38,232 nt of DNA from Chlorobium sp. GTDB lineage: Bacteria; Bacteroidota; Chlorobiia; Chlorobiales; Chlorobiaceae. The notes under the pieces were generated by a model, which had not been told where the DNA came from, did not search any database, and saw only the letters and a list, made by a program, of their open reading frames with translations. The stretch is taken from assembly GCA_005843815.1 (NCBI GenBank), contig SZYA01000019.1:1-38232 (forward strand), given 5' to 3'. This document shows, in pieces, positions 31,815 to 38,186 of the stretch. Both the position numbers and the translations under genes were made by a program. Position 1 is the first letter of the stretch. Each line of letters begins with the position of its first letter.

Positions 31815-33128
31815 CTATTTCTGCATGAAACGCATTGAAATGGGCACCCCCTCCAGTGTGAAATGTTCGCGCAGCTTTTTTTCCAGAAATTTTCTGAAAT
31901 TGTTCTGTACCAACAGTGGATCGTTGCAGAAAAATGCGAAGACTGGCCATGCAGCATTGATCTGGGTGACGTATTTGATCTTCAGCTCTTTGCCTGATTT
32001 TGTGGAGGCGTGTGTTTGTGAAAGCGCCTCTTCAAGGAATTTATTAAGCTTGCTGGTGCTGATTTTACGGGAGCGATTGTGGCTGATCTCCTGCGCCATG
32101 TCCATTGCCCGGTAGAGGTTCTTTTTGGTCAGGGCGGAAATAAAGACGACAGGAACGTACGAGAGGTTGCCCATGTTCATTCTCAGATTCTCTTCGTAAA
32201 TTTTGCTGGTTTTTGAATCTTTTTCGATCAGATCCCATTTGTTGATAAGGAGAAGCGCCCCTTTTTTGCGCTCAACGGCCATATTGATAATCTTCATATC
32301 CTGCTTTTCTATGCCTGGGGCGGCATCGAGCATCACCAGGGCAACCTCGCAGCGTTCAATGGCTTTTTCTGTTCTCAGCGAGCTGTAATACTCTATACCG
32401 GCATCAATTTTGGTTCGCTTTCTCAGTCCGGCAGTATCAATGAGGGTGAACTCCTGCTGTTTGCGGATAAAGCGGCTGTCGATAGCGTCACGGGTGGTAC
32501 CCGGTATGTTGGAGACAATGAGGCGGTTTGAACCAAGCAGAGCGTTGACAAAACTTGATTTCCCAACATTGGGTCGCCCTACCACGGCAAGCTGTATCGC
32601 GGTATCCTCTTCAGCAGGCACTTTGTCTGACTCAGGCAGCGACGCAAGAATGTCGTCAAGCATATCAGCTACGCCCCCCCCATCTCTGGCCGAGATAAAG
32701 TAGGGGCTGGTGAATCCGGTGCTGATAAACGATTCTGCATCAAGGGTAAGTTGGGGCGATTCCACTTTGTTGACGGCAAAGAAGAGCTGCTTGTGCTGGA
32801 AGGTGCGCTGCAGCAGCCGACCCAGTTCGAGATCTTCATAAGAGAGGCCTGCCCGTACATCAGTGACAAAGATGATAATGTCGGCATCGCGGATGGCCAT
32901 CAGTGTCTGTTCAAGCATTGCCATACTGATGATGTCGCCATCGGCGTTATAGCCTCCGGTATCCATCAGGAGGAACTGCTTGCCCTGCCACTCTCCTTCG
33001 GCTATATGTCGGTCTCGCGTGACACCGGGAGTCGGGTCGACGATGGCGCTTCGCTGACGCAGGATTCGGTTGAACAGGGTCGATTTGCCGACGTTTGGTC
33101 GACCCACCAGAGCAATTAAAGGCTTCAT
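31815..33128 (-). CDS. der: Ribosome-assembly GTPase Der (EngA)
   Basis: This 437-aa protein has two consecutive GTPase domains and a KH-like C-terminal domain, a layout unique to Der, which matures the 50S subunit. GTPase 1 shows [11 protein letters not shown] and DTGGY; GTPase 2 (about 178-350) shows [19 protein letters not shown] and NKWD. The KH-like end includes [12 protein letters not shown] and [15 protein letters not shown]. mrp follows after 70 nt on the same strand. Confidence 0.96.
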
Positions 33129-33161
33129 AAGAACGGATGGAGGTCCAGAAAAAAGTTTTGT

Positions 33162-33183
33162 CAGGAGCCGAAAGGAACTCCTG
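33162..33183. repeat. Hairpin just upstream of der
   Basis: CAGGAG / CTCCTG form a 6-bp stem with a 10-base loop. On the minus strand it is followed by ACAAAACTTTTTT and lies 33 nt before the der start. It may be an intrinsic terminator or leader element. The stem is short, so this is only suggestive. Confidence 0.35.
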
Positions 33184-33204
33184 TCAGGATAATGTTCTCT
33201 TTAC

Positions 33205-33471
33205 AATAAAAGTTGCTGACTTTTTAATTTCAAAATGGTTATTATGGTGCGGGAATTGTCGGTGGAACAACGGCAGGACTCTTCCTTAAGCATTCATTGT
33301 CTTCTTAGTGTGGTCAGCTTGCAAGCTCCCAAGGTACTCAATAAAACAGCCACCAGCAAAAAGCGGTCAAGGGTGAAAAAGAGTCCCCTGTGCGGGTCAA
33401 GAATCATACAGAACATTGTCCTCTTATGACGGCAATCATCTTTTCAAAGAACAGGCTGCGCGCTTTTCTCT
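33205..33471 (+). pseudogene. Decayed coding scraps upstream of the TPR-GT gene
   Basis: No intact gene lies between der and the TPR gene. One frame (about 33228-33305) reads FQNGYYGAGIVGGTTAGLFL before a stop; one extra base would give MVII-GAGIVGG, a Rossmann-type dinucleotide-binding start. Near 33426 a short ORF begins MTAIIFSKNR, reminiscent of the first residues of some glycosyltransferases, and fades into a hydrophobic run. These look like frameshifted or fused remnants of surface-polysaccharide genes. The identifications are tentative and rest on short motifs. Confidence 0.3.
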
Positions 33472-35490
33472 GTGGCATATTTATTCTTCTTGTGTCTCTG
33501 CTGTCAAGAGGAGTATCGGCAGTTTGAGGATCTGGTTGCCACGCCCGTCGAGACAATGTCGCGAATCTATTCGTGGTTGGGGGTGTCGCCGCACAGGATC
33601 AATCCTGAAAAGCTGATGGTAAGGCCCCATGAGAGCGATAGCCACTATCGCCATAAATATCTGCACAGGCAGCAACGCTGCATCTCTCCGCCAAAACCAC
33701 ATGAGGTGCCGCCCCGCATCCGCGACCTCATCGCCAATGCGTGCCGATGGTATAATGACCGGTTCTATCCATTGGGGACACCTCAGTATACCTCATTCAG
33801 CAGTACGTCGATACGACCGCCATTACCTGAAGGGAAGCAGATGCAGCAGGCCATGGCATATCATAAAAACGGTCAACTTTCCGAAGCTGCAGGGATATTA
33901 GAAGAGATAGTACTCCATAACCCAAAGAGTGGTGAGGCGCTTCATACTCTTGGTGTCATAGCCTATCAAAGGGAACAGTACCAGCGTGCTGCTGACTTGA
34001 TTGGCAAAGCTATAGCAGTCAATCCTGATAATGCCGCATATTTTTCAGACCGTGGCCTTGCGCTGCAACGACTCAAACAACTGGAGCCGGCGCTTAAACA
34101 CTTTGATAAAGCAATTGCCCTGCAGCCTGACCTTGCCGTAACGCACCTGAATCGGGGCAATGTACTGAAAGAACTCGGTCAGGGAGCTGCAGCCGCTGAG
34201 AGTTACGATAACGCGGCAGTTTTGCTGGAAAAGCAGCCAGAGAGTAGTGATGCGCTCCATTCGCTTGGCCTTATGGCTTACGAAAGTCAGGAGTATCAAC
34301 GAGCGGTTGATTTGATCGGCAAGGCTATAAAGCTCAATCCCGATAATGCGGCCTATTTTTCAGACCGGGGGCTGGCGCTGCAGCGACTGAAACAGTTAGA
34401 CCAGGCTCTTGAGAGTTACAACAAAGCCATAGCACTCAATTCCGACATTCCCGTCATACACTTGAATCGCGGCAATGCCCTGAAGGAGCTGCGGCAACTA
34501 AAAGCCGCTGTGGAGAGTTACGACAATGCCATCGCCATCAAGCTTGACTATGCCACAGCTCACTGGAATAAAGCGCTTGAACAGCTCATCCTTGGCGACT
34601 ACGATAAGGGGTGGCGCTCCTATGAGTGGCGCTGGCGGGAGGAGCATTTCCCCTCACCACGACGCAACTTCCCCTGGCCGCTCTGGCTTGGAGAAGAGTC
34701 GCTGAAAGGCAAGACGATTCTGCTCCACAGTGAACAGGGGCTGGGCGACACCATCCAGTTCTGCCGATATGTTCCTTTGGTCGCTCAATTGGGTGGTCGA
34801 GTAATCTTTGAAGTTGAGTGGCCCTTGATTCCCCTGGTTGAACAACTTGAAGGTGTTTCGCAATTCGTTGCCAAGGGGCAGCCCCTTCCTGCGGTTGATT
34901 TCCACTCGCCACTGCTCAGCCTGCCGTTAGCCTTTAAAACCAGACTCAATACCATACCCTTCACTCAAAAGTATCTGGTCAGCGATCCGCTCAAGGTTGC
35001 AGCGTGGGAACTCCGGTTAGGCCCCAAAATCATGCCGCGTATCGGGTTGGTATGGAACGGGCGAGCTGACCATCAGAATGACCAGCTTCGCAGCATCAAG
35101 CTCTTGGAGCTGACCGAGTATCTCCCTTCAGGGCTTCAGTACGTGAGTTTGCAAAAAGAGGTGCGCCCTCACGACAGGGAGACGCTTGAGTTGCATCCGA
35201 ATATTGCTTACTACGGTGATGAATTACAAGACTTTGCTGACACGGCAGCGTTGTGCGAACTGATGGATGTTATCATAAGCGTTGATACCAGTGTGGCTCA
35301 TCTTGGTGGAGCATTGGGGAAATCAACCTGGGTTCTGCTCCCCCTTATCCCCGACTGGCGCTGGCTGCTTGAGCGAAACGACAGCCCGTGGTACCAGAGT
35401 GCCAGGCTCTATCGACAGGAGGTTGAAGATGATTGGAGTGGCGTGTTGGAGCGAGTCCGGCAGGATTTATTGCAGATGCTGATGAAGTGA
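33472..35490 (+). CDS. Sulfotransferase-tail / TPR / glycosyltransferase-like composite protein
   Basis: A 672-aa ORF with a doubtful GTG start and no ribosome-binding site. Residues about 15-105 match the C-terminal end of sulfotransferase-family proteins (FEDLVATPVETMSRIYSWLG; RPHESDSHYRHKY; RWYNDRFYPLG). The N-terminal PAPS-binding loop part is missing, so this section is unlikely to be active. Residues about 120-375 are TPR repeats, including a tandem duplication of 105 codons. Residues about 400-672 resemble the GT-B-like domain that follows TPRs in many glycosyltransferases (LLHSEQGLGDTIQFCRYVP; SVDTSVAHLGGALG). Followed by fkbM and cysC, it fits a glycan-modification locus. It is likely the product of a deletion that joined two genes. 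Confidence 0.8.
   Translation: MAYLFFLCLCCQEEYRQFEDLVATPVETMSRIYSWLGVSPHRINPEKLMVRPHESDSHYRHKYLHRQQRCISPPKPHEVPPRIRDLIANACRWYNDRFYPLGTPQYTSFSSTSIRPPLPEGKQMQQAMAYHKNGQLSEAAGILEEIVLHNPKSGEALHTLGVIAYQREQYQRAADLIGKAIAVNPDNAAYFSDRGLALQRLKQLEPALKHFDKAIALQPDLAVTHLNRGNVLKELGQGAAAAESYDNAAVLLEKQPESSDALHSLGLMAYESQEYQRAVDLIGKAIKLNPDNAAYFSDRGLALQRLKQLDQALESYNKAIALNSDIPVIHLNRGNALKELRQLKAAVESYDNAIAIKLDYATAHWNKALEQLILGDYDKGWRSYEWRWREEHFPSPRRNFPWPLWLGEESLKGKTILLHSEQGLGDTIQFCRYVPLVAQLGGRVIFEVEWPLIPLVEQLEGVSQFVAKGQPLPAVDFHSPLLSLPLAFKTRLNTIPFTQKYLVSDPLKVAAWELRLGPKIMPRIGLVWNGRADHQNDQLRSIKLLELTEYLPSGLQYVSLQKEVRPHDRETLELHPNIAYYGDELQDFADTAALCELMDVIISVDTSVAHLGGALGKSTWVLLPLIPDWRWLLERNDSPWYQSARLYRQEVEDDWSGVLERVRQDLLQMLMK
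33937..34551 (+). repeat. Tandem 315-bp duplication inside the TPR region
   Basis: Two successive in-frame blocks start at 33937 and 34252 (period 315 bp, 105 codons). Both encode near-identical stretches such as NPDNAAYFSDRGLALQRLKQ and HLNRGN. Differences are mostly at third codon positions, so the duplication is not recent. Confidence 0.75.
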
Positions 35491-35553: not shown

Positions 35554-36354
35554 GTGAAAAACAAGACTCTCAGGCCGGTCGCTTTTGTGGTGACATCCAC
35601 CAATCATGGTACCATGATCGTCAACAGGAATGACTATCGCATGATTGACCATGAGAGGGGATACGGCGTGGGCTATCAGCTCTTGACAACCTCTTCCTTC
35701 GATCAGCAGGAGGTTGATTTTGTTCTGCAACTGCTGGTTGAAAGACGGAACTCTTTTGGTGATGGCGTTGTAGCCATTGACCTCGGCGCCAATATTGGTG
35801 TTCATACCATTGAGTGGTCGAAATTCATGTATGGCTGGGGCAGCGTTATAGCTGTAGAGGCTCAAGAGCGATTATTTTATGCACTTGCGGGCAATGTTGC
35901 AATCAATAATTGTTTTAATGCAAAGGTTATCTGGGGGGCAATAGGGGAGAGTAATGGCACTCTGAATGTTCCTGTTCCGAATTACCACTCTCCGGGCAGT
36001 TTTGGTTCCATGGAGCTTATCCCTTCAGGTAATAATGAGTTTATAGGCCAGGTGGTCGACTATTCACCAGAACAGTCAATGCAGACTCCGCTTTTTACTC
36101 TTGACTCCCTGAATCTCTCTCGAATAGATCTCATAAAAATAGATGTTGAAGGGATGGAGATGAGCGTTCTCCGTGGTGGCCTTGGTTCGATTCAAAATTT
36201 CAGGCCGATTATGGTTATTGAGCGAATTAAAGTGGATGAACAGGAGCTGAAAAATTTTCTTGTTGCTGCGGGATACCTGTTATTTGATTTTGGTATCAAT
36301 GTGGTCGCGGTTCATTGTACTGACGAGATTCACAAGAAAATTATGACTGCGTGA
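35554..36354 (+). CDS. FkbM-family SAM-dependent methyltransferase
   Basis: This 266-aa protein has the FkbM methyltransferase layout: AIDLGANIGVHTIEWS (SAM-binding glycine loop, about 71-86), VIAVEAQERLFYALAGNV, and the later block RIDLIKIDVEGMEMSVLRG. FkbM enzymes O-methylate sugars or polyketides. Between a glycosyltransferase-like gene and cysC, a glycan target is the likelier role. The GTG start is the track's choice and has no good ribosome-binding site. Confidence 0.88.
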   Translation: MKNKTLRPVAFVVTSTNHGTMIVNRNDYRMIDHERGYGVGYQLLTTSSFDQQEVDFVLQLLVERRNSFGDGVVAIDLGANIGVHTIEWSKFMYGWGSVIAVEAQERLFYALAGNVAINNCFNAKVIWGAIGESNGTLNVPVPNYHSPGSFGSMELIPSGNNEFIGQVVDYSPEQSMQTPLFTLDSLNLSRIDLIKIDVEGMEMSVLRGGLGSIQNFRPIMVIERIKVDEQELKNFLVAAGYLLFDFGINVVAVHCTDEIHKKIMTA

Positions 36355-36429
36355 TGCCTTTTGCGCTTCTGACCTTGTGACCGGTATTACCAGCAAACAT
36401 GAACGATAAAATCATATACTTTTGAGACG

Positions 36430-37062
36430 ATGACTGACAAAGATTGCGCTGATTCGGGGAGAGGTCAACAAAATATCCACTGGCACAGGGGAGATGTTGC
36501 TCCATCTGAGCGTGCCGCATTAAAGAGTCAACAGCCCACTGTTATCTGGCTGACCGGTCTCTCGGGATCGGGCAAGTCGACACTTGCCAACAGAGTGGAG
36601 CGCAGGCTGCTCGAGGCGGGGCGACATACTATGCTGATGGATGCCGACAATATCCGCCATGGGCTATGTCGTGACCTTGGGTTCAGTGAAGGTGATCGTG
36701 CCGAGAACATTCGCCGTATTGGTGAAGTTTCAAAACTGATGGCTGAAGCTGGCCTCATCGTCATTACCGCCTTCATCTCTCCGTTTCGGGCCGACCGCGA
36801 TATGGTCAGAACACTTCTGCCCGCTGGAGCATTCATCGAGGTGCACCTCTCCACGTCTCTTGAAGTCTGTGAGGCCCGCGATGCAAAAGGGCTGTACCGC
36901 AAGGCACGAAAAGGGGAAATTGCTCACTTTACCGGCATAAGCTCACCCTACGAAGCTCCGCGTCAGCCAGAACTTCGTATCGATACGGCCACATTATCGG
37001 AGGAGGAGAGCTGTGATCTCATCATGAATTTTCTTTATCGGAAGAGAATTATTGATACGTAA
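36430..37062 (+). CDS. cysC: Adenylylsulfate (APS) kinase
   Basis: This 210-aa protein phosphorylates APS to PAPS, the sulfate donor for sulfotransferases. NIHWHRGDV, the P-loop [35 protein letters not shown], the phospho-serine loop [13 protein letters not shown] and the APS-site region [18 protein letters not shown] are intact. No sulfate-reduction genes (cysD/N/H or sat) are adjacent. With a sulfotransferase fragment 1 to 3 kb upstream, supply of PAPS for sulfation is a better fit than sulfate assimilation. It ends directly against the convergent small ORF. Confidence 0.94.
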
Positions 37063-37844: not shown

Positions 37845-38186
37845 TTATTTGATATCAAGCACACACCCCAAACCTTGCTTGATCAGTTGCATGGTTATTT
37901 CATCAACTACGCCAAGTTGTTTTATAAAGCGCTCCCTGGAGATAGAACGAACTTGAAACGTATCGGCAGCAGAGACTTTTTGAAGTGCATTGTGCTTATC
38001 TGGAGATAGCTTAATCATCCATTGCGCATGGCTATATTGCTCTTTCCAATCGGTAATTGGAACAATGATTTTTAGAGGTAAAATACCGATTTCATTGTTG
38101 CTAACAATAATCGCAGGACGTGTTTTTTTGATTTCTGCTCCAATTGTTGGTTCAAGGTTGATCAACCAGATTTCTCTATTCTTCAT
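37845..38186 (-). CDS. MazF/PemK-family endoribonuclease toxin
   Basis: This 113-aa protein of the CcdB/MazF fold cleaves mRNA in characterised members. REIWLINLEPTIGAEIKKTRPAIIVSN is the canonical N-terminus, with PIT, the middle strand LKIIVPITDW and the C-terminal helix near VVDEITMQLIKQGLG. GGAGAG serves as ribosome-binding site. Its ATG overlaps the stop of an upstream frame (ATGA), and it is followed by the HicB-like gene, an unusual partner for MazF. Confidence 0.9.
   Translation of the reverse strand: MKNREIWLINLEPTIGAEIKKTRPAIIVSNNEIGILPLKIIVPITDWKEQYSHAQWMIKLSPDKHNALQKVSAADTFQVRSISRERFIKQLGVVDEITMQLIKQGLGCVLDIK

Follow-up and report, generated by a model that had tools for sequence, protein, structure and literature searches.

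A sulfotransferase–TPR–glycosyltransferase reading frame in a Chlorobium genome is very probably a deletion scar

Stand-alone sulfotransferases (ST) of the Sulfotransfer_3 family (PF13469) are the closest counterparts of the front part of the reading frame described here. In most of the relatives, the ST comprises ~270 residues (~274 aa) and displays an N-terminal 5′-phosphosulfate-binding (PAPS) loop (FVGVAGLPRAGSTLLCQLL), which reads GLPR[AS]GSTLL (GLPRAGSTLL) in the intact proteins. The gene ends with its own stop codon, a few residues past an FYP motif. An APS kinase lies 3′ of the ST in most loci, directly in several and ~3 kb on in others, and is the immediate downstream neighbor in genomes G023 and G006; this pairing fits a PAPS-using enzyme placed beside a PAPS-making one. 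The back part of the frame resembles Chlorobiaceae TPR-glycosyltransferase-like (TPR-GT) proteins (L149-L152), in which several TPRs likewise precede the C-terminal domain. Unlike the frame in question, those TPR-GT relatives with a readable N-terminus carry no sulfotransferase tail. A literature search for TPR-sulfotransferase fusions or for read-through remnants of this kind returned nothing to the point, and the main text of a genome survey of the Chlorobia (PMC8125076) does not mention sulfotransferases.

The window, by which we mean the whole stretch of 38,232 nucleotides analyzed, lies on contig C54, part of a draft genome (128 contigs totaling 1.90 Mb, ~90% complete) whose relatives are Chlorobiaceae. 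The ORF listing contains a frame of 672 codons (33472..35490, forward strand) that opens with GTG and encodes, in order, 83 C-terminal codons of an ST, a 23-codon linker, and a TPR-GT protein, with the TPRs beginning at about codon 124. Comparison with related genomes makes it very probable that this frame is a deletion scar, in which a sensor histidine kinase (HK) and the ST are both dead and the TPR-GT gene is intact with its own start at 33841. The ST tail is an ordinary gene remnant and probably not a new fused protein. The features of the locus are collected in Table 1.

Table 1. Features in and around the 672-codon frame, in window positions
Feature	Position	Strand	Evidence
der (EngA GTPase)	31815..33128	-	ORF; core gene, left anchor of the locus
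7TM-DISM sensor HK remnant, signal peptide MTAIIFSKNRLRAFLCGIFILLVSLLSRGVSAV	33426..33527	+	97% DNA identity to G006 over 33129-33508
Breakpoint 1: HK signal-peptide codons / ST codon ~187	33521..33522	.	Gap-free three-way comparison; limits of DNA match
ST 3′ remnant, the terminal ~83 codons minus the last few and the stop	33521..33771	+	DNA identity to G023 and G006
Breakpoint 2 at 33771/33772 and 23-codon open linker	33772..33840	+	Limits of match
TPR-GT gene, intact, 549 aa, proposed start ATG 33841	33841..35490	+	AAGG; C-terminal domain and N-termini of relatives
FkbM-family methyltransferase, between ST end and APS kinase	35554..36354	+	PF05050, E=1.1e-17
Short second copy of ST 3′ end with stop	36376..36404	+	Short, weak similarity to TAGTGAGTGGTTTTACCCGCAAGCCTGAAC of G006
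APS kinase (PAPS synthesis), intact	36430..37062	+	PF01583, E=2.4e-66; 78-82% identical to the copies at L031 and L117

Codons 18-100 of the frame (33523-33771, FEDLVATPVE...NDRFYP) correspond to the last 83 residues of a Sulfotransfer_3 protein; they read FEDLVATPVETMSRIYSWLGV...ACRWYNDRFYP and include the peptide LMVRPHESDSHYR. The tail lacks the PAPS loop, and its match to PF13469 stays below the gathering score, covering profile positions 191-213 of 216 (E=0.004, 18 bits vs a cut-off of 27), whereas the intact ST of G023 scores 67 bits over positions 4-212. Despite this weak profile match, the similarity is not due to chance, because relatives at 17 loci in the genome collection and in ten other genomes of the genus share 57-86% protein identity with the tail. 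The nearest intact gene, in G023 (L031 1976-2800), is 86% identical to it in protein over 86 residues, and 33521-33771 shows 87% DNA identity to that gene (L031 2535-2784) and to G006. Like the window, the G023 locus has the APS kinase downstream; the window differs in having lost the ST stop codon and the N-terminal ~187 residues with the PAPS loop, and since these residues are gone, the tail cannot be an active sulfotransferase. The loop is absent from the ORF and was not found elsewhere in the window's genome, and the first 185 residues of the ST have no match anywhere else in that ~90% complete assembly. The structure predicted for the intact ST family from nine sequences had a mean pLDDT of 42, too low for a fold search; the rough secondary structure, a strand at 183-187 followed by helices, would have the seam fall where a core strand ends and is given no weight.

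These relatives bear out the earlier note in its statement that a sulfotransferase tail without a PAPS loop stands in frame before the TPRs. Its estimate of ~90 sulfotransferase residues at the front holds for codons 18-100; codons 1-16 are instead an out-of-frame reading of the HK signal-peptide region. GTG 33472 is merely the mechanical first start codon of the frame, and it sits inside the HK signal-peptide codons in a frame other than that of the HK.

The DNA to the left of the tail belongs to a different gene. The der orthologues are 76-96% identical in the same-genus relatives searched, and the sequence beyond der matches the der flank of G006 at the identity given in Table 1, while the alignment with G023 runs on to 33522, so that across relatives the window follows HK-locus DNA as far as 33508-33522. 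An intact 7TM-DISM sensor HK with 7TMR-DISMED2, 7TMR-DISM_7TM, HisKA, and HATPase_c domains stands beside der in four related genomes (G006, G023, G028, and G036). The window keeps the signal peptide alone (MTAIIFSKNRLRAFLCGIFILLVSLLSRGVSA, the first ~31 codons from ATG 33426), and the HK frame meets a TGA stop at 33525-33527, 3 nt past the seam. The rest of the HK was not found elsewhere in the ~90% complete genome, where only paralogues of 40-42% identity occur; three 7TM-DISM HK paralogues in that identity range lie consecutively on one contig (G000:C122:4151-11400). Beside der in G013, the HK is reduced to a 3′ scrap. The gene typA adjoins the HK in G006 and lies on another contig in the window's genome, which has no bearing on the seam.

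Gap-free comparison of the window with the HK and the ST of G023 placed the first breakpoint at 33521/33522, a point at which AG is present in both parents. The microhomology is thus 2 bp, and the longest word common to the parents within 40 bp to either side of the seam is 6 bp. Against every relative, the DNA match to the ST runs from 33521-33523 to 33770/33771. Both broken genes have intact, separate orthologues in relatives, with homology ending at a shared point, and the missing parts of both are absent from the rest of the draft. The earlier note had raised a deletion as one explanation of the frame, and the seam supports it by joining a truncated HK to a truncated ST.

The neighborhood of these genes in relatives indicates where both halves come from. 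Of the 30 der loci read, 21 have rplM as a divergent neighbor of der at a distance of ~150 bp. The order der-HK-rplM is contiguous in G028 and G036, and G023 shows AAA-ATPase (PF09820)-ST-APS kinase-rplM-rpsI-rpsB; taken together, these arrangements place both halves in one der..rplM slot. Gene content between der and rplM therefore varies, and in Chlorobium-like bacteria this interval appears as a place of accessory-gene gain and loss. The full ancestral order der-HK-ST-APS kinase-rplM is present on no single contig of any genome. The window's contig stops short of rplM, and that gene is found at the beginning of contig C35 in the same genome; since no overlap was found between the window's right end and the start of C35, continuity on that side is an inferred one. 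An origin from two distant loci was also considered, given that der and the ST lie on separate contigs, and was dropped because the der-HK-rplM and ST-APS kinase-rplM orders make a deletion within one slot simpler.

A second case of the same kind is found in G006, where the first codons of an AAA-ATPase are joined to ST codon ~145 (L117 4400-4888). As in the window, a deletion has cut the ST, its 3′ end and the APS kinase are kept, and a short in-frame chimeric ORF results. The two differ in the partner gene (a PF09820 AAA-ATPase vs the HK) and in the ST breakpoint (codon ~145 vs ~187). This separate truncation indicates that the ST gene is being lost repeatedly: at the der-rplM interval, deletions have truncated it on at least two occasions, with the neighboring APS kinase kept each time.

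At the second seam, ST similarity ends against every relative, the ST stop codon is missing from the window, and the linker shows no similarity to ST genes or to their 3′ flanks. Similarity to the ST-APS kinase spacer returns at 36376-36406, and the TPR-GT and FkbM methyltransferase genes lie in between. A segment carrying these two genes thus took the place of the ST stop and left the frame open. The second copy of the ST end may mark the right edge of the segment, as suggested by a short, weak similarity. At another locus (L033, G075), a 31-residue C-terminal scrap of the same TPR-GT lies between the ST and the APS kinase, so the TPR-GT has been present at this site in another lineage, where the ST ahead of it is intact and keeps its stop codon. 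By chance, a remnant would land in frame and 23 random codons would be free of stops with a probability of ~0.10, and the open frame accordingly needs no selection as an explanation. The second ST-end copy has the same CGG as the first, replacing a conserved Trp codon; this shared CGG hints that the Trp change is older than the arrival of the TPR-GT/FkbM segment.

The TPR-GT itself consists of several tandem TPRs (TPR_1, E=3e-33) followed by the glycosyltransferase-like C-terminal domain conserved in its group, which is up to 62% identical to relatives (E down to 7e-127). Glyco_transf_9 matches this domain weakly (E=0.18 over 30 residues), and the glycosyltransferase label appears reasonable as a prediction from sequence. 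In relatives L150, L151, and L152, a short leader directly precedes the first TPR (in L151, MPPSVRLQQALKFHQKGEL...). ATG 33841, Met 124 of the 672-codon frame, immediately precedes QQAMAYHKNGQL, at a position that matches the starts of these relatives. It has an AAGG 7 nt upstream, with a predicted anti-Shine-Dalgarno duplex of -5.6 kcal/mol, whereas GTG 33472 has no suitable Shine-Dalgarno sequence (-3.1 kcal/mol). To judge from these signals, translation of the TPR-GT most probably begins at its own ATG. Because two in-frame starts inside the ST tail, GTG 33583 (-5.7 kcal/mol) and ATG 33616 (-4.9 kcal/mol), are similar to ATG 33841 in duplex energy, a longer product started within the tail may also be made. 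Within the gene, 33922-34214 and 34237-34529 form a direct duplication of 293 bp, 71% identical, that spans about three TPRs.

A single deletion explains the window, given the HK between der and rplM and the ST and APS kinase before rplM elsewhere. The ancestor would have had the order der-HK-(other genes)-ST-APS kinase-rplM. Illegitimate recombination would then have removed everything from the HK signal-peptide codons to ST codon ~187, with the ends rejoined at 33521/33522 over the 2 bp of microhomology. The TPR-GT/FkbM segment would have replaced the ST stop at 33771/33772, with a linker that was by accident in frame and open. The TPR-GT would be translated from ATG 33841, leaving the ST tail untranslated or functionless.

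A genuine new fusion would instead be a translated protein whose ST tail extends the TPR-GT at its N-terminus and has acquired a use such as substrate or partner binding. The frame is indeed open across the ST tail and the TPR-GT, and the tail has no stop or frameshift, retains most conserved residues, and contains weak start sites. Pairwise dN/dS of the tail is low (0.10 vs G023 and 0.16 vs G006), which may mostly be history from before the truncation; on the window branch, 6 nonsynonymous and 8 synonymous changes compare with 2:6, 5:5, and 10:15 on the other three, numbers too small to weigh over 83 codons. Neither the pairwise nor the branch measure separates a recently dead tail from one still under selection, given its length. 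Against a fusion, the tail lacks the PAPS loop and the whole N-terminal two-thirds conserved in intact relatives, and the Trp found at tail position 80 in all aligned intact relatives is replaced by Arg in the window. The linker could readily be open and in frame by chance at the odds given above, the TPR-GT has its own start where its relatives start, and the joint frame occurs in this genome only, across searches of 65 genomes from the genus and 395 from the phylum. We consider a fusion with a gained use very unlikely. That the deletion gave rise to a translated chimera, with the ST segment as an N-terminal extension and thus a freshly born architecture confined to one species, is judged highly improbable.

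The earlier note had also proposed a new architecture in which the tail acts as a binding module. This proposal finds no support: no other genome searched joins the tail to TPRs, and an in-frame ATG with AAGG stands exactly where the TPR-GT relatives begin. As evidence that would tell against it, the note had named an intact separate sulfotransferase gene and a real start just before the TPRs: the former was seen directly in related genomes, as ~270-aa STs with their own stops, and the latter is inferred at ATG 33841.

An assembly artifact would make the window a chimeric contig that joins two loci separate in the real genome. The window does come from a draft of 128 contigs, and G006, G014, G023, and G036 each carry der and the ST on different contigs. 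However, joins at microhomology typify illegitimate recombination rather than chimeras made by an assembler, for which a shared k-mer is required, and the words common to the parents here (6 bp within 40 bp, 2 bp at the seam) are far below assembler k-mer length. Moreover, the missing HK and ST halves turn up on no other contig, and both halves present map to the der..rplM slot of relatives. An artifact is accordingly quite improbable, and the deletion scar remains the favored reading. The case carries a caution for annotation: an automatic gene caller would list a 672-aa sulfotransferase-TPR-glycosyltransferase "fusion" where comparison resolves two dead genes and one intact one.

Further observations concern the slot. 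In G006, two apparent deletion scars lie on one 8.5-kb contig (L117:73-394 and L117:4372-4888), one joining the AAA-ATPase start to the middle of an APS kinase and the other joining it to the C-terminal half of the ST; both breakpoints fall within the first ~75 AAA-ATPase codons, as if that stretch were deletion-prone. Genes for an amino-acid-type ABC transporter and a substrate-binding protein flank the truncated ST-APS kinase pair before rplM in G006 (L117:810-6567), and neither was seen in the slot of G023. At the right end of the window, a PemK/MazF-like toxin gene is encoded on the reverse strand (37845-38186, PF02452, E=3.8e-22), and the rplM contig begins with what appears by eye to be an AbrB-type antitoxin (G000:C35:1-330); the two may flank an assembly gap in the der-rplM slot.
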